A stretch of 64,000 nucleotides of DNA from Carallia brachiata. Lineage: Eukaryota > Streptophyta > Magnoliopsida > Malpighiales > Rhizophoraceae. The notes under the pieces are model-generated. The model was given only the letters and a program-made list of their open reading frames with translations. It was not told the origin of the DNA and did no database searches. The stretch spans positions 11,912,544-11,976,543 of the forward strand of contig JADCRB010000068.1 in assembly GCA_021464245.1 (NCBI GenBank), given 5' to 3'. Numbering within the stretch: the stretch's first letter is position 1; the number at the start of each line of letters is the position of its first letter. Shown piece by piece: positions 41,869 through 59,664 of this stretch. The position numbers and the translations under genes were made by a program.

Positions 41869-43747
41869 ATGGAGCCATGCCATCTAACATTACTCTTCCC
41901 TAAAATTCCAAAAATATAAACAGTATTATAGACTTGACTAGAGAAGAAGAAAAATATGATATCAAATGAAATGCCGTACGTAATTGTAACATGAAATGTG
42001 TGCTGCGACTTTTGATATTGTAAACGAAATCACAAAAGCCCCAAACTTTGCAATACCCCCGTCCGGGACTCTCAAATATTTTTAAAAAATTTACTGTGGA
42101 GTATTGCCCCTGCTTATCAATTTTTACTCACAAAAAACATTACTGTGTTTTCTTTATTAAATTTTCTTTGCATCCCTAACTATCTTATAAATTGAGTCCA
42201 TTCAATTTATGTTTTTAATTGAAATTGGAACTAAAGCAAATAGATTCTATTATCTATGGAGTTACCATTCCTAAGGGTGGCTACGTAGCTTGTTTTAATT
42301 AATTTTTCTTTTTTTTTTTTCTGTTTGTGTATATATATATATAGTTGGCTCATTGTTTCCTTAGTTACATTGCAAATTTTAATCTAGTCTAAGAATTACC
42401 AGTAAGATATTCAAACTAATAGACTTTCTGCATTTTGTTGATGACAAAATCCTGACCAAATTGTTGTCTCATAAAAATTGCAATCTCATGAAAGAAAGTC
42501 CACCATGGGAGTTCCCAGTTCTTGAGCTTGTGTGCACTTCTTTCTTCTATTTTTTTTAAAAAAGAATTCGTTGTGTGAACTTTCTTATAGACACCAAAAA
42601 AAGACTCAATAATATTCTAAGTCAGTTAGTGCATATTTTCTAAAAGAATCGACCAAAATTCAACATTCTACCCAAAACTCCACGCACATGGGACTCATAA
42701 TATTTCTCCTGTTTGGATTTTGGAGATGAGCAATTCTTTTTGTATCTTGAAAAGCACTGACGCATTTAAAATAGGCGCCTGTCCGGAGACTTTACCTATA
42801 AAACGACGAGGGGTACTATATAAAATCATATTCATTTATGTTTTGGGAAATGTTGGTGGATGTGTATTTAGTGAGATCAAAGCAACAATAAATGATATAT
42901 CTTATTAGATAGTTAAATTTTAAAAAATAAATAAATAAATAAATTATTAAATATTATTAAATAATTTATATGACAATCTATATCTTTTTAAGGTACATCC
43001 ACTTATTGGTGCTTTTATGTTTTTTAGTTCTTAGGTATGGAAGAACAAAAGATTGTTATTTGAATTAATTGGCAATCAATGTGTAGGGACGGACCCTGAT
43101 CACTTCTATTAAGTACAAGAGACCTACCTGATCATAGTTATTTCATTGAGTATTAGTACGTAGGTTCTCTTAAGTGATATTAAAATAATAAGATAATCAC
43201 ATTAAATAATATTTAACATTATATTATTTTTTTTATTTTTTTAAATTTAATTATTTAATAATTTATATTATTTTAAAATTAATTTTTCAAAGTGGAATTC
43301 AAATTTTCTTTTTAATCTAATCACTATGAAAAATTATTGAAAGCAACATTAATAATAGTTTCTGGTGACAGAATGACAAATTTTGTAAGATTGTACTTTG
43401 ACTTAAATGGCAACCAATGTGTGGAGATTGACCCTAATACATCTATTGAAGACAAGGGATTTGATCTTAGTGATATTTAATCACTATGGAAAATTATTGA
43501 AAGGTACACCAATAAAATTGTTCTTTTCTGGTGTGTGTATATATATATAGTGATAAACGAAAATTATGTAAGATATCGCCTACAAAAAAAAAAACATTCA
43601 TTGAATTGATTTACTAGAAAATTTAATTCGATTAACTACACTTTCGATTTAGTTCAATTTGAATTAGTTGGTTAACCAAATTATTTATTTTTTTCTCAAT
43701 GCTCCATATAATTATGTGAAGGAAGATGCAGGGAAATAGAGATATAC

Positions 43748-45054
43748 CTGATTCAGCTGCATCGACACGGACATATAAGTCCTGCCCTGCACTTGAATAA
43801 CTCCTTGTGTCAACCAACAATCCCCAAACCACATCAGGCATCCAAAACCTCTCTCGTCTGCTGAAGCGAAAGCCGTGCAAGAGCAATTCTCCAAGCACTC
43901 CTGCTCACATTGCTTCAGGCTCAGACCCATGTCGGCACGTGCCACCGACGTGTCAGGTACCTTCACACGTGCCAACATCACGAACCCTTCTCCACTTTCG
44001 ACACGTGGACGAACCGGCTTTCCTGATGCAACCTCCTGACCCATCCCTCATGTACCAATCGCGTGGTGACTTGGGTCATATCCTGGTAGGCAATTGCAAA
44101 AAATTCGCCAGGATCATTATACGGGTCACAGTTACCATTCACCACATTCCCCGTAATTATCACAAAGCTCTTTTGGGGCGGACAAGTATGCGATCCACCG
44201 ATGTCGTGATCGTTCCACGTGGATCGTTGGATGTACCCTGATTCATTTACGATCATTCTGGTGAAATTGGACCAGCATTTGATGCATTTACTTTTAATTC
44301 CGTCCCAAATTGATACCTCATCTACGTTGTTCACAAAAATAATACGAAAGATGTAGTAAAGTATCTGTCTTTCGGGTACTCCGCTCCATCTCAGACCGGT
44401 CCACGGCCCGCCACGCCACCGTGGGAGGGAACCTTTGTAAGAAACAATTGTGGATACCCAATGGATCAATTCTTAAGGAAATGTCACCAATTCCAGGATC
44501 ATATTCAGACTTCCATGAAGAAAGAAACCGGCTAAATCCGGTCCTACGGTCCCCCAAGTTTCATCAAAGGAATCAAAGTGTCTGTAGGATAATCGAAGCT
44601 CTGCCATAAGACCCTTTTGCTATCCTGTTGAACCAAGACCAGATTTCCTGTATCCAAGAGCTGAGCCATGGAATTTTGGTCACTGCGAAGCCGAAACATT
44701 AGTAGACCAAACGGGACACCACCACTTTCGTTGTTCTCTAGGATGACAAGATTGCCGTGTTTGTCGACAGAGAGTGTCGGTCCGGGTACCATTTATAGGA
44801 CTATCTCTATTTGCCACCCACACAACTGTCTGCTCTGGAACTTTGTAGAACCAAATTCCGAGGTAGCGGCGGGTGGTCGAATTGTCGGGGCTGAAGAACC
44901 CAAGTGCGAAGCTGTGTCCACTGGAGACCAAAACGTTGCCATCTCTGATGGGCTGGCTTGGAGTTATGGTGTCGGTGGTGGATGTGCAGAGGGGTAAAAT
45001 AAGGAAGAGAAGAAGCAGCCACTCGGTAATTATAGACCCTTCTACAGATTTCAT
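43748..45054 (-). pseudogene. Copy B exon 1, ectodomain, multiply frameshifted
   Basis: Same order of domains as copy A (signal peptide LLLLFLILPLC, lectin, S-locus glycoprotein, EGF-like, PAN), but read only by switching among three frames: pieces 44680-45054, 44544-44792, 44318-44557, 43978-44469, 43712-44044 and 43632-43898. The donor at 43747-43746 is intact. Confidence 0.9.
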
Positions 45055-45230
45055 GGTGAGCTGATGACAATTGGCATTGGATCAGTGAAGTTTCATTTTG
45101 GACTACTAGATGATATCTTGTAGGCTGGGCGACAGGATTGTAGTTGGGGGATTTTAATAAGTGGGACCGCCCAATAACGTCAAGGTCCACTTTCGAACTC
45201 CCACGAAAAAGGGTCAATGGCAGAGAAAAT
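45055..45230 (-). promoter_or_regulatory. Promoter-proximal region of copy B
   Basis: Aligns with 2729-2900 of copy A, including the TTGACGT motif and the TTATTAAAA TATA-like element. Confidence 0.4.
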
Positions 45231-45439
45231 GAATGTACAGGAAGTGACGAAAAAACATAACAATACAGAAACAATAACATTATGTGAGATGACATGCCTT
45301 CATTAGTTGGGCCGTTGTGAGTTTGAGAGGATGTAGTATGTGCTCATATATTATTTGAAAAAATCTTATTAGTAACGTAATTGAAAGACATGTGTGAACT
45401 AATTTGAATTATTAAATTAAAAAATATATAAATTATTAA

Positions 45440-46813: not shown

Positions 46814-46818
46814 ATAAT
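46814..46818. repeat. Tat target-site duplication, left
   Basis: ATAAT directly before the 5' LTR, identical to 56752-56756. Confidence 0.85.
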
Positions 46819-47436
46819 TGTAAACAAATAAATTTAAAAAAAAAAAATTAATATGGTTGGCAGCTGCCAACCTAATTAAATGCCACCAACCATTTGGTTG
46901 GTGGCAGGCAGGCATGGGGGAGGCCTATAAATTGGCCTCCCCAATTGAATGAAATTCAGAAAAAAAGTCAGCAGCGAAGCAAGCGCAAAGGAAAAAAAAA
47001 AAAGAAAACGGGCAAAAAAAAAAAAAAAGAGAGATAGTAAAAAAAAAAAAAATCAAAATATTACAAATCCGGTTGGGATTAAGTCTCATACGGCCCTCAG
47101 CAAAATCCAGGCAGCTCTTCCGAGAACAAGTCCATTCGACCCTCGGTGAAATTAAGTCAGATCAGCTCAGATCAAATCTCTATGGTTCCTAAACGTAGTC
47201 AAAACGTCCAAATCAGATACAGTTTCAGTATATCCAGTTCAAGAAAAAGCGGTGGAAATTATTTCTGTCAAGATCAAGCTCGTGCAGCCCTTGACGGAGT
47301 CAAAAAAGGAACACTAATCGGAGGATCTACGGAGATCGACCCCACGTAAATTTTCTTTTCTTTTACAATTTTTATTTGTAATTTATTTTTGTATTTTCGA
47401 GTTTAATTGTTTTAGGCTCGAAATTTACGCTTTACA
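46819..47436 (+). repeat. Tat 5' LTR
   Basis: Begins TGTAAAC and ends GCTTTACA (terminal inverted TGTAAA/TTTACA). It contains an 18-bp perfect palindrome GGTTGGCAGCTGCCAACC, an inverted pair ACCAACC/GGTTGGT, and a TATA box CCTATAAATTGG (about 46924-46935), so transcription should start near 46960. The frame at 47146-47349 is not a gene. Confidence 0.9.
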
Positions 47437-47637
47437 AATTTTTCACGCTCGGTGGGACAACTTCACCTCCCATCTCTTGTTCCTAAAAAAAAAAAAGAGG
47501 TAAAAGGGGAGCCGAGAGAAAAAAAAAGTAAAAGTAAAAAAAGTAAAAAAGTAAAAAAAAAAAGTAAAAAGTAAAAAGTAAAAAAAAAGTAAAAAAAAGT
47601 AAAAAAAAAAAAAATTTACAGGTGTTCAGCACATCAA
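47437..47637 (+). other. Tat untranslated leader
   Basis: Starts AATTTTTCACGCTCGGTGGG; the PBS should lie here, but I could not assign the tRNA. An A-rich (AAAGT)n tract from 47485 to 47615 precedes gag. Its poly-Phe/Leu frame on the minus strand is an artefact. Confidence 0.7.
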
Positions 47638-49290
47638 ATGGCACCGAAAAGGAGTACAACTGCTGCCACAAAAAAAGGCAACGGCTCCATTGCCTGCATC
47701 AACTACCCTACCTGGGTACGCAGGTCCAGAAACCCGGGGACGGACACAATTTCTTGCCGTCCAAACCCGACAAAATGTCGAAATGGAGAGTCCACAGCTC
47801 GCACAACAGGATCTCTCCCCTGACTCTCTTGCCGCATGGAGGAGTCGATCACCCACCCCGATCGAAGTCGGGGCAACACGACGAAACCTGCTCAACAAAT
47901 CCAACTCACACACAGAGAATCAGAAGAGTTTTCTCCCCCAGTCTTTCCCGGAGCCTCATCTGTTGCCGTCATGATGACCAACACAACCAGCACAGAGAAA
48001 GGATTTCAGAATTGGAGAACAAAATTTTCAGCTGATCAGAGTCGTGGAGGAAAAAGATCAACAGATCGCAGCTCTCAAAGGAAAAGCCCCGATCCAAGTT
48101 GATCCCGAAATCCGCGAGGAGCAACCATATCCACCCGGTTTCACTCCAGAAGCCACACCAGCCGACGTCTTCCCTGCAGAAAAGCGACCAGGTAGTTCTA
48201 CACAGCTGCCACCCTCAAATTCTGTAGCTTCGCTATCTGTTCAACAATTGCAGGAAATGATAGCCAATACGATCCGACTGCAACAAGCTACATCCTTCCA
48301 AGGATCGCAGATGTACGTCAAACCGTACACCAGACGGATCGAAAGTCTCAACATGCCTCTGGGCTACCAGCCGCCCAAATTTCAACAATTCGACGGACGA
48401 GGCGATCCCAAACAGCACATCGCCCACTTCGTTGAAACCTGCAACAACGCAGGGACTTATGGAGATCTCTTGGTGAAGCAGTTTGTTCGTTCACTCAGGG
48501 AGACCGCTTTCACCTGGTTCATAAATCTTGAACCAGAATCGATCGACAGTTGGGAACAGCTACAACGAGAGTTCCTCAACAGATTTTTCAGCACTCGAAG
48601 GACGGTAAGTATGATGGAGCTTACCAGCACCAAACAAAGGAAAGGAGAGCCCGTTGTCGAATACATCAACAGATGGCGTGCCCTCAGCTTGGACTGCAAA
48701 GATCGCCTGACGGAGACTTCTGCCGTAGAGATGTGCATCCAGGGAATGCATTGGGAGCTGTTATACATCCTGCAGGGTGTCAAACCCCGAACTTTCGAAG
48801 AACTGGCGACCCGCGCACATGATATGGAGATAAGCATCCAGACTTCCGGAGGCACGGTTCCCATCCAGTTGGACCAGCAAGGGGGCAGAAGGGAGATTAA
48901 GAAACCCAACAGCTCCGGAAAAGGAAAGAAGTGATGACTGTTGAAGCCGCACCAGTAAAAGTGGGCGCCAAAGCTAAGGTAAATCCTCCGACCCAAATAA
49001 CTCAGCCAAAACAACAGGAAAGGCGGAAGGTGACATTGCGAGAGCTGGAGCAGAAGCAGTATCCATTCCCCGACTCAGACGTCCCCGACATCTTGAACAA
49101 CTCTGGAGGCGAAGCTGATCGAACTCCCAGAGTGCAAGCGGCCGAATGAAAAGGATCGAGTCAGCGATCCGAGATTCTGCAAATATCACCGGATAGTAAG
49201 TCATCCAACCGAGAATGTTTCGTCCTGAAGGAGCTAATCATGAAGCTCAAAAGCCAGAATAAAATCATTCTGGACCAGGAAGGCGTAACC
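47638..49290 (+). pseudogene. Tat gag polyprotein, frameshifted
   Basis: Start ATG at 47638 (MAPKRSTTAATKKG). The N-terminus then runs through frames at 47690 and 47836. The main capsid piece is 48044-48934, with the gypsy capsid signature (MPLGYQPPKFQQFDGRGDPK, HFVETCNNAGTYGDLLVKQF, FTWFINLEPESIDSWEQL, FLNRFFSTRRTVSMMEL). After a shift come a basic linker (48931-49149) and a Tat-type zinc knuckle at about 49177-49230 (CKYHRIVSHPTEN, C F), itself missing one base. Capsid packages element RNA in virus-like particles in the cytoplasm. Confidence 0.9.
48044..48934 (+). CDS. Tat gag, main open capsid segment
   Basis: 296 open codons covering the retrotransposon gag domain (about residues 100-260). 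The true N-terminus lies upstream in other frames; the Met at 48044 is internal. Confidence 0.85.
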   Translation: MEEKDQQIAALKGKAPIQVDPEIREEQPYPPGFTPEATPADVFPAEKRPGSSTQLPPSNSVASLSVQQLQEMIANTIRLQQATSFQGSQMYVKPYTRRIESLNMPLGYQPPKFQQFDGRGDPKQHIAHFVETCNNAGTYGDLLVKQFVRSLRETAFTWFINLEPESIDSWEQLQREFLNRFFSTRRTVSMMELTSTKQRKGEPVVEYINRWRALSLDCKDRLTETSAVEMCIQGMHWELLYILQGVKPRTFEELATRAHDMEISIQTSGGTVPIQLDQQGGRREIKKPNSSGKGKK

Positions 49291-49559
49291 TCGCAAACCA
49301 GACCACCATCACTTCAAAACCATCAGAAGAGTGACACACCGTAAGGAGGAGCCGCTCGACAACAAAAAGTCGACAACGGAGAAGGTATATGAAGCTCTCC
49401 AAACCCTTCTCGCTAACCCTCAGCTGTTTATAGCTTTGCAATCAACAGAAGTGTGGCAAAATCAAGTCAGCAATACTCTCCAGACCTCAGCTGAATCCAG
49501 CCATCAAGAATTCAGCTCGCGGAGCAACAGGCGGACCAAAATCACGTCGGATGTTACTC

Positions 49560-50150
49560 TGCTATCTCATTTTCAGATGAGGATCTCCTGCTGGGGTCCA
49601 AACCCCACAATCGGCCGCTGTATGTATCAGGCTATGTGAAGAACAGAAGGTCGACGTATTCTGATCGACGATGGCTCAGCAGTCAATATTATCCCAAAAT
49701 CCACCATAAAGGAGCTCGGCATCGGTTGATGAATTATCAGACAGCCGCTTGATGATTCATGGCTTTAATCAAGGAGGACAGAAAGCAATTGGGATGATTC
49801 GCTTGGAGCTAACTATCGGTAATCTCACTTCTAGCACTCTTTCACGTGATTGATGCACGTACCACATATAAGATGTTGCTAGGACGACCGTGGATTCATG
49901 GAAATGGAGTTGTGCTCTCAAGCCTGCATCAGTGCTTCAAGTACTACAATGGTGGCGTTCAAAAGGTCAATGCTGACTTAAAGCCGTTCGATGATGCTGA
50001 ATCACATTTGGCGGATGCAGTCTTCTACACTGACAGACAGACAATCCGGAGATCATTCCGTCAAAAGCTACTTGGACTGGGGGCATCCACAAAAAGGGAA
50101 AAGCTGTCGAAGAACCTGCCAATGCCAACCCCAGGCTCCAACAAATGAAA
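49560..50150 (+). pseudogene. Tat aspartic protease, frameshifted
   Basis: Active-site motif LIDDGSAVNIIP at about 49659-49695, the Tat-type form (D-G-S in place of D-T/S-G), followed after a shift by the second hallmark region (VIDARTTYKMLLGRPWIH, 49846 on). It cleaves the Gag-Pol polyprotein. A one-base loss separates the active site from both neighbours. Confidence 0.85.
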
Positions 50151-50770
50151 AGCTGCCACAGCCTGCTGAACTTCGTCCGAAGGATGTTGCATCTTCAAGC
50201 TCCACTCCAGTCCTACGCTATGTGCCAAGTCACGACGCTCAGAAGGTCAACCCCCTTTCTCTTATTGTATTGATCTAAACAGGAGCAAGGATAGCCAACC
50301 CAAAACAAAGGAGCTGCACAACCTGAAGGAGACTTACACTCTGCCGATACCAAAGATTGAGCCGGTTTTGTCTTCAAAACCATTAAAAGGCTTCGTCAAA
50401 CCACACACGGGGCAGTCGAAGGCGGCTCACTTCCAGAAAGAAGAACACATGAAGGATTTGATCCTAATGCATACAAGCTTTTGGCAAAGGCGGGCTATGA
50501 CTTCTCAAACCCGAGCACAATGGGTACGCTGCCGTCCACACATGGCGCCGCTTCTCAAACATCACAGTCCCGACCTGGCTTAGGCTATCAGGAGAAGTCA
50601 CCTGTGCGGATCACGCTAAAGAGCCGAAGCCGAGCAGCTGATGCACGTGCCATCACACCACCACCAAACAAGACAGGCTTATCCAGTCAAACAAAGAAGG
50701 TGAAGTCAGAGGTTCTGCATTTCATGTCACAATTAGCGAGGAGGCTGATTCCGACTCATCAGATGGTGAA

Positions 50771-51244
50771 GTGAAGGAGGCTCCCCCGGAACTTGAAGAT
50801 GGTGGCCAAGCAACTGTTGATGAACTCAAGGAGGTCAATCTTGGCTCTCCGGAAGATCCTCGACCTACATTTGTAAGTGCTTTACTTACTGCAGAAGAAG
50901 AGCAAGAATATGTTCAGGTATTAAGTCAATACAGGGACGTGTTCGCATGGAGTTACAAAGAAATGCCTGGACTTGACCCAAAAATTGCGGTGCATCGTCT
51001 AGCAGTAAAGAAGGGTGTTCGTTCTGTCAAGCAGCCACAACGACGGTTCCGCCCGGAACTCATTCCACAAATCGAGGAGGAGGTGAACAAGCTGATCAAT
51101 GCTGGCTTCATCCGAGAGGTCACCTACCCAACGTGGATTGCCAACATTGTCCCGGTAAGAAAGAAGAATGGACAGTTGAGGGTATGTGTTGATTTTCGAG
51201 ATCTTAACAGGCCTGCCCGAAAGATGACTTTCCGTTGCCCATAA
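50771..51244 (+). pseudogene. Tat reverse transcriptase, N-terminal part
   Basis: Open 157 codons: the pre-RT linker, then FRPELIPQIEEEVNKLINAG, FIREVTYPTWIANIVPVRKK and VCVDFRDLN (fingers domain, with catalytic Asp of block A in VDFRDLN). Ends in a frameshift; the next RT block (DATTGHEAL, then MDGSSGYNQI) lies at 51255-51330 in other frames with a one-base loss. Confidence 0.9.
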
Positions 51245-51387
51245 CGGAGATCACAGTCGATGCAACAACGGGTCACGAAGCATTGTCTTCATGGATGGTT
51301 CTTCAGGCTATAACCAAATCAGAATGGCACCAGAAGACGAGGAGTTGACAGCATTCCGCACCCCAAAAGGTATATACTGCTAAAGTT

Positions 51388-52641
51388 ATGCCGTTTGGAT
51401 TGAAAAATGCTGGCGCCACTTATCAACGTGCTATGCAAAAAATTTTTGATGACATGCTGCACAAGATTGTAGAATGTTATGTTGATGACTTAGTTGTAAA
51501 GACTAAGAAGCGCAAAGACCACCTCGAGGATCTCAAGACAGTGTTCGAAAGACTTCGGAGGCATCAGCTCAAAATGAACCCTCTCAAGTGCGCATTCGGT
51601 GTCACATCAGGAAAGTTTCTTGGGTTCGTGGTGCGCCATCGTGGAATCGAAGTTGATCAGTCAAAGGTTGAGGCAATTCAAAAGATGCCTGAACCTAAAA
51701 ACCTGCACGAGCTGCGAAGTCTACAAGGAAAGCTGGCCTACATTCGCCGTTTCATCTCCAATTTAGCTGGGAGATGTCAACCTTTCCATCGGTTGATGAA
51801 GAAGGATGTCAACTTCGAGTGGGACGAAGCTTGCAGCAAAGCCTTTGAGAGCATAAAGAAGTACCTTTCCAATCCACCGGTCCTAGGTGCTCCAATTCAA
51901 GGAAAGTCGTTGATTCTCTACATTGCAGCGCAGGAAAGATCTTTGGGAGCCTTGCTTGCACAGGAAAACGAGCAGGGAAAGGAAGTTGCCCTGTACTACT
52001 TGAGCAGAACACTAAACGGTCCGGAGCTGAGTTATTCGCCCATTGAAAAGACATGTCTAGCACTGTTCTTTGCCATTGACAAGCTGAGGCACTACATGCA
52101 AGCTCACACGGTACGTCTCATTGCCAGAGCTGATCCTGTCAAATATATCTTATCTAGACCAATCTTGTCAGGACGACTTGCCAAGTGGGCAGTAATCCTA
52201 CAAAGCTACGACATTGTCTACGTGCCTCAAAAAGCAGTCAAAGGACAAGCTCTAGCAGACTTCCTTGCAGATCACCCTGTTCCGTCAGATTGGGAGTTCA
52301 CAGATGATCTTCCAGATGAAGAGGTCTTTTACATTGAGACACTGCCACCATGGACGATGTTCTTTGATGGTGCAGCAAGGCGTGATGGTGCTGGTGCCGG
52401 CATAGTGTTTGTCACTCCTCAACGACAAATACTACCATATGCTATCATTCTCGGTGAGTTATGTTCAAATAATGTTGCTGAATACCAGGCTTTGATCATT
52501 GGTCTTCAAATGGCTGTCGATATGAAGATTCCAACTATAGAAGTCCATGGAGATTCCCAGCTCGTCATCAACCAACTTACAGGATTGTATGATGTAAGAA
52601 AGAGGACCTTGCGCCTTACCATCAACGTGCTCGACAGCTAA
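51388..52641 (+). CDS. Tat reverse transcriptase, RNase H and archaeal-type RNase H
   Basis: 417 open codons, the best preserved part of pol. MPFGLKNAGATYQRAMQ opens the palm block; YVDD (catalytic, 51478-51489) lies at residues 31-34. Then the thumb, a retroviral-type RNase H (FEWDEACSKAF, LYIAAQERSLGALL, YYLSRTLNGPE), a tether (VKGQALADFLADHPVPSDWE) and a second RNase H of archaeal type (WTMFFDGAARRDGAGAGIVF, NNVAEYQALIIGL, EVHGDSQLVINQL) with its DEDD-type acidic residues. The double RNase H defines Tat elements. The frame shifts at 52641 before integrase. Confidence 0.95.
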   Translation: MPFGLKNAGATYQRAMQKIFDDMLHKIVECYVDDLVVKTKKRKDHLEDLKTVFERLRRHQLKMNPLKCAFGVTSGKFLGFVVRHRGIEVDQSKVEAIQKMPEPKNLHELRSLQGKLAYIRRFISNLAGRCQPFHRLMKKDVNFEWDEACSKAFESIKKYLSNPPVLGAPIQGKSLILYIAAQERSLGALLAQENEQGKEVALYYLSRTLNGPELSYSPIEKTCLALFFAIDKLRHYMQAHTVRLIARADPVKYILSRPILSGRLAKWAVILQSYDIVYVPQKAVKGQALADFLADHPVPSDWEFTDDLPDEEVFYIETLPPWTMFFDGAARRDGAGAGIVFVTPQRQILPYAIILGELCSNNVAEYQALIIGLQMAVDMKIPTIEVHGDSQLVINQLTGLYDVRKRTLRLTINVLDS

Positions 52642-54088
52642 TGGATGAATTTGAAAGCATCACCTTGGAGCATGTGCCTCGACGAGAAAACACTCAGGCA
52701 GACGCGTTGGCTAACCTGGCCACTTCTCTTGCAAAGTCAGAAATCCAGGCTACAGTTGTTGCCGTATGCCAGAAATGGATAGTGCCACAAAGGATGATGA
52801 AGAAACTACAGCAGCCAACGCTGTATCTGTACGTCTCGCGGAGGACGAAGATTGGCGCCAACCAATCATTGACTATCTACAGCACGGGCTGCCCGAAGAT
52901 CGTCGTCATAAGACAGAAATTCAACGACGAGCTCCCCGCTTCATATATCTCAAGGATGCTCTGTATCGAAGGTCTTTTGATGGAGTTTTACTTCGCTGCC
53001 TAGCAATGAAGAGGCAAAACAGGCTCTCACTGAAGCACATTCTGGTGTTTGTGGCGGACATCAATCGGGGCCTAAGTTGCACTTCCAACTCAGAAGGATG
53101 GGATACTACTGGCCAACCATGGTACGTGATTCAATTGAGTTTGCTAAAACTTGTCAAGCTTGTCAATTTCATGCGAATTACATACATCAACCACCGGAGC
53201 CACTGCATCCAACTGTCTCATCCTGGCCCTTTGAAGCTTGGGGTCTCGACTTAGTGGGGCCCTTGCCAAAGTCATCCCTGGGTCACCTGTACATCCTCGC
53301 AGCAACCGACTACTTCTCAAAATGGGCTGAAGCCATTCCACTTAGAGAGGTAAAGAAGGAGCATGTTGCCAATTTCATCCGGACTCAGCTGATCTATCGC
53401 TATGGAGTCCCTCGATTCATCATCACTGATAATGGTAAGCAGTTCTACAACAGCTTAATCGACAAGCTCTGCGAGAAGTTCAAGTTCAAGCAGGTCATCC
53501 ATGTACAATGCCCCAGCAAATGGCTTGGCCGAAGCATTCAACAAGACCTTATGCAACCTGTTGCGGAAGGTAGTCTCTAAATCCAAAAGAGATTGGCATG
53601 ACAGAATTCCGGAGGCATTATGGGCGTATCGTACAACTTACCGGACTCCAACACAGGCGACGCCATACTCACTTGTCTACGGTGTCGAAGCAATACTGCC
53701 GTTGGAAACACAGATTCCATCCCTGCGCATGGCTGTTCTGGAAGGACTCACACAGGAGGAGAATGCTCGCCTACGTCTGGATGAGTTAGAAGCCCTCGAT
53801 GAAAGGAGGCTCGAAGCACAACAGCAACTTGAGTGCTACCAAGCCCGGCTCACCAACACGTTCAACCGCAGGGTCCGCCCTCGATCTTTTCAAGTTGGAG
53901 ACCTTGTTCTTGCAGTGCGACGGCCCATCAACATGAAGCATCGGCCTGGTGACAAGCTTACTTCCAAATGGGACGGGCCATACTTAGTGCAGGAGGCCTA
54001 CACTCACAACGCTTACATGCTGTCAGACCAAGAAGGCGTCCGAATCGGCCCAATCAATGGTAAATTTCTGAAACAGTATTATGTGTAA
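52641..54088 (+). pseudogene. Tat integrase, frameshifted
   Basis: After the end of the second RNase H (LEHVPRRENTQADALANLAT) come the HHCC zinc-binding domain (about 53030-53165, with CQACQFHANY), the DDE core in frame 53077-53580 (WGLDLVGPLPKSSLGHLYIL, then FIITDNGKQF) and, shifted at 53501, its third-residue region (NGLAEAFNKTL) and C-terminal domain (FQVGDLVLAVRRP, WDGPYLVQEAY). Stop at 54088. There is no chromodomain, as expected for Tat. The frame 53501-54088 is open for 195 codons. Confidence 0.92.
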
Positions 54089-54089
54089 A

Positions 54090-54152
54090 TATGTTTAAAA
54101 AAAAAAAAAAAAAAAAAAAAAATCAAAAAAAAAAAAAAAAAAAAAAAAAAAT

Positions 54153-54198
<46 letters not shown>
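54090..54198. repeat. Poly(A) tracts after integrase
   Basis: Three long A-runs separated by TC, about 105 bp. They give spurious poly-Phe frames on the minus strand and mark the junction between pol and the captured region. Confidence 0.95.
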
Positions 54199-54199
<1 letters not shown>

Positions 54200-54201
<2 letters not shown>

Positions 54202-54440
54202 GCGAAGTCCCGATCTGAAAGACCAAGCGAAAATCCAAACCCAAACACTTGAGCCCAATTCAGAGTCCAACCCAAAACCTGAAAACCAAATCCAAAAATC
54301 CAATCACCCAAACACTCGACCCAATCCAAAAATCCAAGTCAAACCAAACACTCGACCCAAATCCAATCCAAAGCCCAAAACCCAAAAATTCCAAGTTCCA
54401 GACACAGTCCAGAACCCAAGTTCAAAATCCAATCCAACTC
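54200..54440 (+). repeat. CCAAAT/CCCAAA-rich low-complexity sequence
   Basis: Irregular repeats such as 'aacactcgacccaa' and 'ccaaatccaatcc', giving Asn/Pro/Lys-rich frames on the plus strand (54200-54466). Probably non-coding leader or promoter sequence of the homeobox unit. Confidence 0.6.
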
Positions 54441-54468
54441 CTGGCCCGCATGAGTATAAACTGTGAAC

Positions 54469-54486
54469 GGCCCAAAAATATAAAAG
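54469..54486 (+). promoter_or_regulatory. TATA box and GGCCCA motif of the WUSCHEL-like unit
   Basis: TATAAAAG at 54479-54486, a consensus plant TATA box, with GGCCCA (site II-type) at 54469-54474 and a second TATAAA at 54455-54460. The ATG of the homeobox ORF is 96 bp downstream, so a start near 54510 would leave a leader of about 65 nt. Confidence 0.55.
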
Positions 54487-54574
54487 CAACGGAGGGTTTG
54501 AGTCTGAAACTCAGCATCAGTCTCAACCGATCTTCACCACATACCAAGACCTTTGCTCCTCTGCCACAAGAAAG

Positions 54575-55179
54575 ATGGAACCAGTTGCAGAACCTCAAGA
54601 CAAGGGAGAAGAAAGGTCACCCGCACAAGGTGGCAACCGACCATGGCACAACTGCAAATTTTGGAGGAAGTCTTCCACAACAATGGAGGTATTATTCCTA
54701 TGCATCTCAAATTTACCAACTTGTCTCACGATTGCCCCGTCGGGGCAATCGAAGGAAAAAATGTGTTTTATTGGTTCCAGAATCGGAGAAGCAGGAAGAA
54801 ACCAGCACTGAGAACTGCTTTTCCAAAGAACAGTCTGTCGTTCCGATAGTAAATCCCACTGGTACAGCTTCCCTCAAATGAAGCAGGTCCGAGTTCTTCC
54901 ACTGCAATGGTCTCTCCACGGTATGTTCATCAAAGCCGTAGCCCATGGGAGCATGCATGCTGGTCCTGGTGGTCTTACGGAGTCAGCCAAGGGTTCATCC
55001 CTCCTAGGTACTTAAGTCTAGGAGGAATTTTTCTAGCAGAAAGGAGTTATTCCGGCGAAACTTTGCCTCTCTTTCCAGAATATTCCGGCAGCATCAACCA
55101 GCCGGAAAGCGACGTCAACATCATCGGCCCACCAGACGAGGTCGAGCTTGACTTGGAGTTGCACCTCGGGCCCCGCTAG
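54575..55179 (+). pseudogene. WUSCHEL-type homeodomain protein captured by the retrotransposon (WOX, WUS clade), frame-damaged
   Basis: ATG at 54575 (AAGATGGAACC) opens MEPVAEPQDKGEE; after a one-base shift near 54610-54640 the frame reads a WOX homeodomain (about 54622-54816): TRWQPTMAQLQILEEVF (helix 1), a diverged helix 2 (HLKFTNLSHDC) and IEGKNVFYWFQNRRSR (recognition helix with invariant W, F, N, R). The same frame holds stops TAG TAA at 54847-54852, beyond which it reads on to FIPPRYLSLGG, a WUS-box TLPLFP (55060-55077) and EAR-like LDLELHL (55147-55167), ending at TAG 55177-55179. WUS-box and EAR motifs recruit TOPLESS-type co-repressors in WUS proteins. No intron is present. Length about 200 codons against about 290 for WUS. 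Homeodomain identity is firm; the closest paralogue is not (the RRSR helix end resembles WOX8/9/11/12, the C-terminal motifs resemble WUS). Confidence 0.85.
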
Positions 55180-55196
55180 GACGGCCGACAAGATAA

Positions 55197-55278
55197 GGTG
55201 CAACGACTTTGGCAGCACACGGTAACGACTTCTGCAGCACACGGCAACGACTTCTGCAACACACGGTAACGACTTTCG
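55197..55278. repeat. Minisatellite, about 25-bp unit, four copies
   Basis: 'caacgacttctgcagcacac' type units at about 55200, 55226, 55248 and 55268, just 20 bp after the homeobox stop codon. Confidence 0.85.
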
Positions 55279-55394
55279 TGACACGCGTCAGCCGCTGCCT
55301 CTTTTGTCTCTTATGCAGGAAAGGGACGTGGATGACCCTACTCGATTCTGCGTACCTTCTTTTTGACTTTTCAAAAAAAAAAAAAACTTTATCG

Positions 55395-55411
55395 TATGTA
55401 TATATATATCT
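55395..55411 (+). promoter_or_regulatory. TATA-like element before second extra ORF
   Basis: GTATGTATATATATATC, 50 bp upstream of the ATG at 55462, with a pyrimidine-rich leader (CTCAGCTCTTCTTTCTC) between them. Confidence 0.35.
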
Positions 55412-55461
55412 GCATTCCCGAGTTGTAATACTCACCCCTCAGCTCTTCTTTCTCAAAAGAA

Positions 55462-55994
55462 ATGGCTAGTCTCTGCACTTGTCTCAGGAAGTTCTTCGAT
55501 CAAGAAGTTGGAGGCGCACGAGCTAAGAAAAAAGGAGTAGTCTTCCTCGAGGGATCCCTAAAAGCCCTCGAAACTCAGTCTAACGCCATCGGTGTCATGG
55601 AGTTCCAACTACTCTCCTTAGTTCACATCTACCACAGAGGGATGAGAAGCTGCAATATCCTAATCTTCCTTTGGATGCGGCGACGTACAGGGAAGTTCCA
55701 ACTACTCTCCTTACGTCGAAGCAGACTTGGAATCATCACTACAGTCAGTCTCTCTGTGCGGTCTTGAAGTTCCAAGGTGCTGGGCCTTCCTCTTGGGGAG
55801 GTTCAAGTTCTTTGCCTACCGGATCATCCTCACCAGAGTTTGGAACTTCAAAGAACCTTTGCCAGCCTTTTGCTATGGAAGCTCGAATGCACCTGGAGCT
55901 AGAATGTCAATTTTATATTGGCTGGGCTGCTAACTTTCTCAAGATCGTATCGGATTCCTATTGCGATCCAACAACAGCGCATGGTCAAAGATAG
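55462..55994 (+). CDS. Unrecognised extra ORF(s) in the Tat 3' region
   Basis: ATG at 55462 in good context (AAAGAAATGGCT) opens 101 codons to 55767 (MASLCTCLRKFFDQEVGG...). An overlapping frame, 55671-55994, is open for 107 codons (MDAATYREVPTTLL...). The 25-bp duplication GTTCCAACTACTCTCCTTA at about 55603 and 55695 suggests that the two frames could be one coding sequence with an indel. I recognise no domain. It may be a further captured host fragment or lineage-specific 3' sequence. Confidence 0.35.
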
Positions 55995-56093
55995 AAGACT
56001 CCAAGATTCAATGTTCATCAGGACTTTCCAAATTTCAAACTGGACTTCAAGACTCGGTTCGAATATCTCTGTAAAATCTTCTTACCGACCCTT

Positions 56094-56105
56094 GAAATGG
56101 GGGCA
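56094..56105 (+). promoter_or_regulatory. Polypurine tract
   Basis: GAAATGGGGGCA directly before the 3' LTR, the expected plus-strand priming site. Confidence 0.75.
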
Positions 56106-56107
56106 TT

Positions 56108-56751
56108 TGAATAAATAATTAAAAAAAAAATTAATATGGTTGGCAGCCGCCAACCTTGAAGGTTGGCAGCTGCCAACCTAATTAAATGCCACCAACCATT
56201 TGGTTGGTGGCAGGCAGGCATGGGGGAGGCCTATAAATTGGCTTCCCCAGTTGAATGAAATTCAGAAAAAAAGCCAGCAGCGAAGCAAGCACAAAGAAAA
56301 AAAAAAAAAAAGAAACAGGCGAAAAAAAAAAAAGAAAAAAAAAAAGAGAGATAGTAAAAAAAAAAAATCAAAATATTACAAATCCGGCTGGGATTAAGTC
56401 TCATACGGCCCTCAGCAAAATCCAGGCAGCTCTTCCGAGAACAAGTCCATTCGACCCTCGGTGAAATTAAGCCAGATCGGCTCAGATCAAATCTCTACGG
56501 TTCCTAAACGTAGTCAAAACGTCCAAATCAGATACAGTTTCAGTATATCCAGTTCAAGAAAAAGCGGTGGAAATTATTTCTGTCAAAATCAAGCTCGTGC
56601 AGCCCTTGACGGAGTCAAAAAAGGAACACTAATCGGAGGATCTACGGAGATCGACCCCACGTAAATTTTCTTTTCTTTTACAATTTTTATTTGTAATTTA
56701 TTTTTGTATTTTCGAGTTTAATTGTTTTAGGCTCGAAATTTACGCTTTACA
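56108..56751 (+). repeat. Tat 3' LTR
   Basis: Begins TGAATAAATAATT (the 5' LTR has TGTAAACAAATAAAT) and ends GCTTTACA. It differs from the 5' LTR by an extra palindromic unit of about 23 bp (GGTTGGCAGCCGCCAACC added before GGTTGGCAGCTGCCAACC), A-tract length, and about nine substitutions, all transitions as far as I can see. Confidence 0.9.
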
Positions 56752-56756
56752 ATAAT
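56752..56756. repeat. Tat target-site duplication, right
   Basis: ATAAT, identical to 46814-46818. Confidence 0.85.
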
Positions 56757-58410: not shown

Positions 58411-58713
58411 TTACCGAGCTTGAGGCATAGTAAGAGTCACGTCATTAATAGTGTTTGCACCTTCACTGGTTGACGGATCTCCGTTGTTGTAACTTCCCTT
58501 CAGGATAAACGCAGGCTGTTTCGGAGATGGAAGAATGGTATCATTGCCTAGCATGAAAATGACAGTGGACATTGTTGGCCTATCAAATGCAGCTTCTTGA
58601 ACACACAATAGGCCAATTTGGATGCACCTGAAGACCTCATGTTCAGGGTATGAGCCAGCCATTGACAAATCCACTATCTTAATTGCTCTGCCTTCTTGCC
58701 ATTGCTCCCATAC
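58411..58713 (-). CDS. Copy C exon 7, kinase C-terminus (open)
   Basis: VWEQWQEGRAIKIVDLSMAG, then [20 protein letters not shown] and [19 protein letters not shown], tail ending MPQAR at the stop. Fully open, unlike copy B. Confidence 0.85.
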   Translation of the reverse strand, partial: VWEQWQEGRAIKIVDLSMAGSYPEHEVFRCIQIGLLCVQEAAFDRPTMSTVIFMLGNDTILPSPKQPAFILKGSYNNGDPSTSEGANTINDVTLTMPQAR

Positions 58714-58787
58714 TTGAAGCAGCAAAAATAAGAAAGTGTCCAACATTGGTGAAGAATTGAATGTGGTTGGAGTCTCATTTCACTTAC

Positions 58788-58935
58788 ATCATACCGACCA
58801 GATTTGAAGAGGTGCTTTCCTCATAAAGTACTGTTTTTTGACCAGTGATGATCTCTAAGAGCAAGACCCGAAGCTATATACATCTGATTTACAGAAAATA
58901 GGCCTTGCATTGCGTATTCTGGTGACATATAACCA
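58788..58935 (-). pseudogene. Copy C exon 6, kinase C-lobe
   Basis: Shares with copy B the missing A in the VKSDVYS block and has a further missing G in the following TTCGGGG. Length 148 bp. Confidence 0.8.
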
Positions 58936-59043
58936 CTGCATAAGCACAACAAGAGCGGAGCCACATAGTTATGTGACCATTTACCACAACTTGAAAAAGG
59001 AAAAATTGTAGTTTGTTTGTTACATGCATGACTCTAGACGTAC

Positions 59044-59277
59044 TTATGTTCCAACAATGCGTTTTGTGTTTGCTTCGATTTGGTCCACTCCAACTATTCT
59101 AGCCATGCCAAAATCTGAATTTTTGGGTTCATTGAGGATCGAGCAGAACATTGTTGGCCTTGAGATCTCTATGGATGATTCTCAATCTCGATCTTGATGA
59201 AGATAAAGAATCCCTCGAGCATCCCGCAAATGAGTTGAATCGCATTGGCCAATCTAATTGTGATCTTTTGATTTCAT
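59044..59277 (-). pseudogene. Copy C exon 5, catalytic loop
   Basis: [10 protein letters not shown], then a one-base loss, [14 protein letters not shown] and further small losses around DFGMAR. The donor reads ACATAAGTACG instead of ACATAGTAAGT. Confidence 0.8.
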
Positions 59278-59364
59278 CTGGAATTAAGAATTACAACTAC
59301 TCAAATATGTTTTTATTATTCGCACAATCATATATACAATGCTGAGTACAGAGTGATGACATAC

Positions 59365-59575
59365 CGAAAATGACAGAATCCAAGCTTTTATTTTGGCAAA
59401 TACTCATACACCAACATCTTCTCTTGTTTTTTGATGCAACACCTAGAATCCTTACAAGATTTCTGTGCTGGAGTTTTGCGATCAACGCGACTTCAGTCAT
59501 GAACTCCTCAGTCCCTTGTCCAGAATTCTTGGACAGTCTTTTCACTGCTATTTCCTTCCCATCCTGCAGTATGCC
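59365..59575 (-). pseudogene. Copy C exon 4, kinase N-lobe
   Basis: 211 bp, [20 protein letters not shown] (catalytic Lys present). The LGCC-to-YLPN segment is read out of frame between two compensating indels and the frame is restored at NKSLDSVIF. Confidence 0.85.
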
Positions 59576-59664
59576 CTGAAAAATTGGAAAATCGTATGCA
59601 ACATTTTTAGAGGCAAAATAATTCTGAGGAATTAAAACCATCTTCCAGGAATGCAGTTGGCTAC

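Follow-up and report, generated by a model that had tools for sequence, protein, structure and literature searches.

Extra open reading frames (ORFs) are common in plant LTR retrotransposons, and most of them are of unknown origin. A survey of 121 genomes describes 15 extra domains in plant gypsy elements, including a B3 domain and, in Citrus, a LONELY GUY-type domain (PMC9289625). No homeobox is named among these extra domains in the main text of that paper. For the Retand elements, a survey of 617 assemblies analysed clusters of sense ORFs located 3' of pol and 5' of the downstream LTR, and its excerpted text reports no known domain among them (PMC11963269). Here and below, statements about published work refer to excerpts of the cited papers unless the main text is named.

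The terms homeo, WUS and WOX are absent from the main text of PMC7264820, PMC13317346, PMC12786077 and PMC11728184, and the WOX family papers PMC6482515 and PMC5501002 deal, in their excerpts, with elements near WOX genes. Searches of open-licence PMC papers brought up no report of a homeobox or WUS/WOX gene inside a plant LTR retrotransposon. That plant gypsy elements can have extra ORFs is already known; what appears to be new here is a host-derived WUSCHEL (WUS)-type homeobox gene.

The element in the window and its WUSCHEL-type gene

The window, a stretch of 64,000 nucleotides from Carallia brachiata (host contig coordinates C132:11912544-11976543; genome searched, 337.5 Mb), contains a Ty3/gypsy LTR retrotransposon at 46819-56751. 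With a total length of 9,933 bp, and gag, reverse transcriptase (RT) and integrase identified by Pfam, it corresponds to the 9.9 kb element of the initial annotation. The boundaries given there also hold: pol ends at 54088, the 3' LTR starts at 56108, and the target duplication ATAAT lies on both sides. The features of the element are as follows.

46814-46818, no strand: 5' target-site duplication ATAAT; the identical 5 bp recur at 56752-56756
46819-47436, plus strand: 5' LTR (TGTAAA...TTTACA), from comparison of the LTR pair
48044-48934, plus strand: gag (Pfam Retrotrans_gag, 2.1e-15)
50771-51244, plus strand: pol open frame ahead of the RT match, with no Pfam match of its own
51388-52641, plus strand: pol, reverse transcriptase, RNase H and second RNase H (RVT_3) (Pfam RVT_1, 4e-18; RT_RNaseH, 2.8e-23; RVT_3, 5.3e-12)
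53077-54088, plus strand: pol, integrase, split over two overlapping open frames in the window copy (Pfam rve, 6.6e-11; Integrase_H2C2, 2.1e-5, under its cut-off)
54097-54198, plus strand: A-rich spacer from pol to the WUS-type gene, with A runs of 26, 27 and 45, read from the sequence
54479-54486, plus strand: TATA-like motif TATAAAAG, a putative internal promoter; TATAAAA is conserved in 29 of 31 aligned copies (eye count)
54575-55179, plus strand: WUSCHEL-type gene, frame-shifted in the window copy and a 207-codon ORF elsewhere (ORFs, Pfam and other copies)
54622-54801, plus strand: homeodomain (Pfam Homeodomain, residues 24-83 of window:54553-54849)
55057-55077, plus strand: WUS-box ETLPLFP (sequence, and alignment with WUS proteins)
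55147-55167, plus strand: EAR-type LxLxL motif LDLELHL (sequence; Pfam EAR, E 0.0086, under its cut-off)
56094-56107, plus strand: polypurine-tract region ahead of the 3' LTR (sequence; similar AGTGGGGGCATT in copies L009 and L011)
56108-56751, plus strand: 3' LTR, from comparison of the LTR pair
56752-56756, no strand: 3' target-site duplication ATAAT, read from the sequence

The gene order in pol is RT-RNaseH-INT, gag is present and the target duplication is 5 bp long. The two LTRs of 618 and 644 bp have TG...CA ends and differ by a K2P distance of 0.023 (580 gap-free columns), compared with 0.009-0.016 in three other copies. Copy L009 has a different target duplication, GTGGG; a matching duplication was looked for in copy L011 and none was seen, and in copy L014 the LTR start could not be placed. 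Pfam finds two RNase H domains in window:51388-52641, RT_RNaseH at 173-274 and RVT_3 at 326-410. A dual RNase H is a feature of the Tat lineage (PMC9289625), and the Tat assignment made in the initial annotation agrees with it; we call the element Tat-like. Its region between pol and the 3' LTR (54089-56107) measures 2,019 bp, which is below the Retand range of 2,933-6,566 bp (PMC11963269). The antisense TRP28 ORF that characterises Retand was not found in this region of the one copy checked, L010, where the sole antisense ORF of at least 90 aa encodes 109 aa and is without Pfam match.

Some observations concern the surroundings of these features. The spacer with long A runs at 54097-54198 aligns among copies with shifts and repeats, and a 22-bp repeat with roughly four units lies directly 3' of the WUS-type gene (55200-55287). 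Outside the element, stretches identified by eye as portions of S-domain (G-type lectin) receptor-like kinase genes are located at 1391-2755, 43712-45295 and 58411-59641, all on the minus strand. Direct repeats at 42.0-42.4 kb and 61.5-62.0 kb have a spacing of ~19.5 kb, suggesting a tandem duplication with the element in between.

The WUS-type gene is in sense orientation to the element and is sited 3' of pol and 5' of the downstream LTR, with its ATG at 54575 and the end of its stop codon at 55179. The Pfam Homeodomain profile matches window:54553-54849 with an E value of 9.9e-12, and the structures matched by sequence are WUSCHEL (6ry3, E 1.2e-12) and STENOFOLIA (6wig, 2e-10). Matches of this strength mean that the homeobox in the window is not a chance resemblance, and its reported place, in sense between integrase and polypurine tract, is borne out. 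The related statement that this gene encodes a WOX homeodomain stands as far as the significant homeodomain match is concerned, but the window copy is frame-shifted while other copies are intact. Its translation from the ATG halts after 78 codons, whereas WUS-box and EAR motif are read in a different frame (ORF 54907-55179). The TATA-like motif lies ~95 nt 5' of the ATG and a pyrimidine-rich stretch with AG immediately 5' of it, so that transcription from an internal promoter and splicing to a subgenomic mRNA are both possible.

Copies of the gene in the host genome

We searched the host genome with the Pfam homeodomain profile and scored 150 of 1,348 candidates, among which a block of near-identical scores (~49.5 bits) was conspicuous. 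Seventeen loci were picked from this block for a 229-codon open frame, and all 17 encode a 207-aa protein with an EAR-like end. Twenty further homeodomain matches comprised 14 element copies and six host WOX genes. A search with the whole protein yielded 2,317 candidates. The best 150 were scored, and every one matched with E ≤ 1.2e-115 and is 85% or more identical across no fewer than 186 of the 207 residues. By eye count, stop codons are absent in 115 and present in 35 of these best 150 of 2,317, and one identical 207-aa protein, 100% equal to the query, comes from 23 of the loci. Copies of the WUS-type gene are thus present at no fewer than 150 places in the host genome; copy counts are lower bounds and are skewed to well-kept copies.

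The arrangement seen in the window recurs at these places. In 31 long loci, the reference L009 included, an LTR lies downstream of the gene in all 31 and integrase lies upstream on the same strand in 29, the integrase match being absent in L032 and L037. A host WOX gene struck by a retrotransposon at one locus would explain the window taken singly, and nothing else speaks for such a nested arrangement. It is refuted by the constant association of gene and LTR in the long loci and by the spread of the 150 scored matches (best 150 of 2,317) over many contigs, and we give it practically no weight. The recurrence of this gene in one position, flanked by pol and LTRs, in multiple copies supports a stable gene-carrying lineage. 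The observation made in the initial annotation is confirmed, and its interpretation as an element family carrying a WUS-type gene is supported.

For closer comparison we used a sample of 48 loci (seventeen short slices included), which together with the window makes 49 copies. By ORF intactness criteria, 25 of the 49 are intact and 24 are not. L018 has a compensated frame shift in its C-terminal part that replaces the WUS-box and keeps the length and the EAR end. In L039 and L048 the ORF is open through the EAR end and the start codon reads I, not M. At G000:C17:80703-81323 and 90918-91538 the same protein is encoded twice on the same strand, ~10.2 kb apart, perhaps by a tandem or LTR-sharing pair.

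A second gene 3' of the WUS-type gene, for which there are frames of ~190-257 codons in some copies, was considered and rejected, the region having pN/pS values of 0.78, 1.02 and 0.95 in three frames; Pfam searches with the L010 ORFs from this region gave no match. A search for relatives in viral contigs returned six pattern-matching stretches, none of which was confirmed.

The protein, its origin and the selection acting on it

The 207-aa protein is most similar to WUS. Its top matches in a database of 5.77 billion protein sequences are WUS proteins from a wide range of flowering plants (E 2.9e-18), and the closest structures by sequence are WUS homeodomains (2.7e-18); together with the match of the window gene to 6ry3 (1.2e-12), these establish the significant WUS similarity on which the initial annotation depended. 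The matches are 29-53% identical (120 listed of 419), and no near-identical protein is among those listed. The C-terminal half (residues 86-207), compared with proteins separately, gave 18 candidates, none with E ≤ 10. AlphaFold predicts a confident three-helix homeodomain (pLDDT block means of 90-94 for residues 21-70) and a disordered remainder (mean pLDDT 59). Foldseek returned 11 matches under 0.001, every one a WUS or STENOFOLIA homeodomain.

An alignment with 60 WUS proteins (A1) shows the domain order of the element protein: an MEP start, which is common to many of the 60, the homeodomain, the WUS-box ETLPLFP and a terminal LxLxL EAR motif. Within the homeodomain, 25 of the 37 positions that are invariant in WUS are kept, versus seven of the 27 other positions (hypergeometric p 0.001), and all six invariant positions outside the homeodomain are kept (M1, T165, L166, L168, F169, P170). 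Features of the WUS clade are present, namely WUS-type homeodomain residues, a WUS-box TLxLFP and a C-terminal LxLxL. The exact WUS-box ETLPLFP occurs in 31 of the 49 copies, the other 18 having variants, some of which break the motif. LxLxL is found in 48 of 49, with the Pfam EAR model scoring under its cut-off. WUS repression acts through the WUS-box and the EAR motif. Both also have roles in nuclear retention and export (PMC10610496).

In Arabidopsis WUS, residues R38, W39, Q89, N90 and R94 make base contacts with DNA or serve to anchor the arm, F101 is a homodimer residue, and T35 and S36 tune specificity (PMC7203112). The equivalents of the five contact residues are all kept in the element protein, and 46 of the 49 copies have all five. 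The dimer residue F101, a property of WUS that does not define the family, is replaced by A, and the specificity residues are changed from T35 to P and from S36 to R. Conserved DNA contacts would suit a protein that binds its own or related element sequences and so tunes transcription; the DNA-binding extra ORFs of Retand have been proposed to be such transcription regulators (PMC11963269). However, the sole site tested, TGAATGAA, occurs in the window LTR and is missing from all 17 other fully covered 3' LTR regions, and we judge self-regulation of this kind unlikely. Another possibility is a dominant-negative WUS, a decoy occupying WUS targets or partners and thereby weakening host stem-cell control or WUS-linked defence. 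A protein with its contact residues, WUS-box and EAR motif kept while F101A, T35P and S36R differ could act in this way, but the near-universal LxLxL motif suggests an active repressor, not an empty competitor, and a decoy function seems to us quite improbable.

The site TGAATGAA, a WUS-preferred repeat, is located at 46946-46953 and 56252-56259 in the window LTRs, just 3' of the LTR TATA box. It was rejected as a conserved LTR signal for self-regulation, being found in 0 of 17 other copies; L013 has TGAATGAA outside the LTR.

In a homeodomain tree, the element is placed tentatively on the WUS side relative to host genes that we take to be WOX13 and WOX11/12 (support 85/80); its branch is long, at 1.19 changes per site, and carries a long-branch warning. 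There are two host WUS genes, L035 and L036, one of which groups with Erythroxylum WUS in this tree. The nearest named relative of host WUS is likewise Erythroxylum WUS (74% over 71%), and Erythroxylum belongs to the order Malpighiales.

In the genomic sequence of L035 and L036 alike, the frame of the homeodomain meets a stop, and the WUS-box follows ~1.1-1.2 kb beyond the homeodomain; in the element, homeodomain and WUS-box are ~100 codons apart in one ORF. Since the two parts are joined in the element and split in the host genes, the gene was probably captured from spliced mRNA of a host WUS gene. A single capture event is likely. The gene has the features of a transduced gene, occupying one position throughout many copies and being apparently intron-free compared with the donor. 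The homeodomain of the element is identical to that of host L035 at 32 of 60 positions (53%).

We examined selection by pairwise counts and by counts of shared variants, using no ancestral reconstruction. The pN/pS set consisted of 30 copies, L018 being excluded for its compensated frame shift. Present-day constraint on integrase is clear, with a pN/pS of 0.17 (28 of the 30 copies). The whole WUS-type ORF gives 0.62, a value that alone is no proof of constraint, as it barely differs from the lowest value of the non-coding controls (1.00, 0.64 and 1.26 in three frames 5' of the gene; 0.78, 1.02 and 0.95 in three frames 3' of it). The homeodomain has 0.31 (its other two frames give 1.38 and 1.67), which is biased downward because the copies were found by homeodomain score and is suggestive of present-day constraint on this domain. 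For the ORF outside the homeodomain the value is 0.81 (0.79 and 1.26 in the other frames). In 14 more divergent copies the ORF has 0.74 and integrase, covered in 12 of them, 0.24. Over 48 copies, shared variants have an N:S of 96:55, where neutrality would give a ratio of 2.85 (p 0.003); within the homeodomain the counts are 19:16 (p 0.009). The N:S of shared variants is not significantly different from that of single ones (Fisher p 0.19), a result that goes against our preferred reading. The picture of short-term selection on the gene as a whole is mixed.

These values bear on the view that a piece of a host gene was captured by chance, was amplified with the element and is now decaying as a useless passenger. 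Broken copies are common in our sample (24 of 49 not intact), and the pN/pS of the whole ORF is near the lowest of the non-coding values, which span 0.64-1.26; outside the homeodomain it is 0.81. However, stop codons would be expected on divergence to about half identity, and they are missing from 115 of the best 150 of 2,317 matches. When neutral drift of the 207-codon ORF to 48% identity was simulated, only two of 1,500 runs remained stop-free. The homeodomain alone remained stop-free in 18% of runs, and its openness by itself is therefore not decisive. The preferential retention of WUS-invariant residues (p 0.001) is a further point against decay. A homeodomain that is 53% identical to host WUS and yet open argues for long-term constraint, in which WUS-invariant residues were apparently kept by preference, and we regard the passenger as an unlikely explanation, if a serious one.

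Possible role and comparison with known systems

The reading that we prefer builds on what the copies display: a gene in a constant position and in sense orientation, a high copy number, intact 207-aa ORFs, the domain order of WUS and conserved DNA-contact residues. A divergent WUS gene, probably acquired in a single capture of spliced mRNA, is carried by a Tat-like Ty3/gypsy family between pol and 3' LTR, and the predicted protein would be a WUS-type repressor that favours stem-cell identity where it is transcribed and so raises the germline share of insertions. We hold this combined reading tentatively and with somewhat less than even confidence. The ORF would be expressed from the internal TATA-like promoter or through splicing of the LTR transcript. 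The protein is predicted to bind WUS-like DNA sites and to repress via its WUS-box and EAR motif. A stem-cell state might then be favoured in the cells that transcribe the element, and new insertions might reach the germline in greater share; such an advantage in stem-cell transmission has the weakest support of all the steps.

Germ cells of Arabidopsis descend from the stem cells of the shoot, where LTR elements show raised expression during the vegetative phase (PMC7560203). The stem-cell reading has points against it, namely the substitutions F101A, T35P and S36R, the proportion of copies that are not intact, and a pN/pS outside the homeodomain similar to that of the 3' non-coding region. 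No conserved WUS-type repeat site was found in the LTR among the 17 other copies that include the complete 3' part. In its boldest form, the proposal is that a retrotransposon lineage has made a master stem-cell regulator its own gene, the plant counterpart of a viral oncogene. With its own WUSCHEL it would hold cells in, or bring them into, the stem-cell state that gives rise to the germline, and so control its own transmission. We consider this possible but doubtful.

Whatever its role, the gene places many intact WUS-like coding sequences in the mobile DNA of one plant genome. The origin of the extra ORF is clear here, and the gene is among the best studied switches of plant development. 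The long-standing question whether retrotransposons steer host cell state in order to reach the germline is thereby made testable. As the database matches listed are at most 53% identical (120 of 419), gene-family annotation, studies of meristems and regeneration, and the masking of transposable elements are all affected.

Maize Bs1 is a low-copy element. It resembles the present family in being an LTR element with captured host gene sequence (named in PMC7264820 and PMC13317346), but what it holds is a fragment of a housekeeping ATPase gene, as opposed to a full-length regulator at 150 or more places. The host WUS genes L035 and L036 and Arabidopsis WUS (6ry3) share with the element protein the order of MEP/MDP start, homeodomain, WUS-box and EAR motif; unlike the element, the host genes have homeodomain and WUS-box on separate stretches, and the homeodomains are only 53% identical. 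Gypsy_Pa_2799 of Phalaenopsis is, like the element described here, a Tat-type gypsy element with dual RNase H and a host-captured extra ORF kept in many copies (PMC9289625). That element is ~25 kb long, and its ORF encodes an AlkB m6A demethylase, not a developmental transcription factor. The gypsy elements of Citrus that contain a YgdH (LONELY GUY-type) domain are similar in that their extra ORF is related to a regulator of cytokinin and meristems (PMC9289625); compared by description only, they differ in having an enzyme-type domain and no homeobox repressor. The Retand ORF TRP28 likewise lies between pol and the 3' LTR and possibly binds DNA (PMC11963269). TRP28 is antisense and, in the excerpted text, without known similarity outside transposable elements, whereas the ORF of the present element is in sense orientation and clearly derived from the host.
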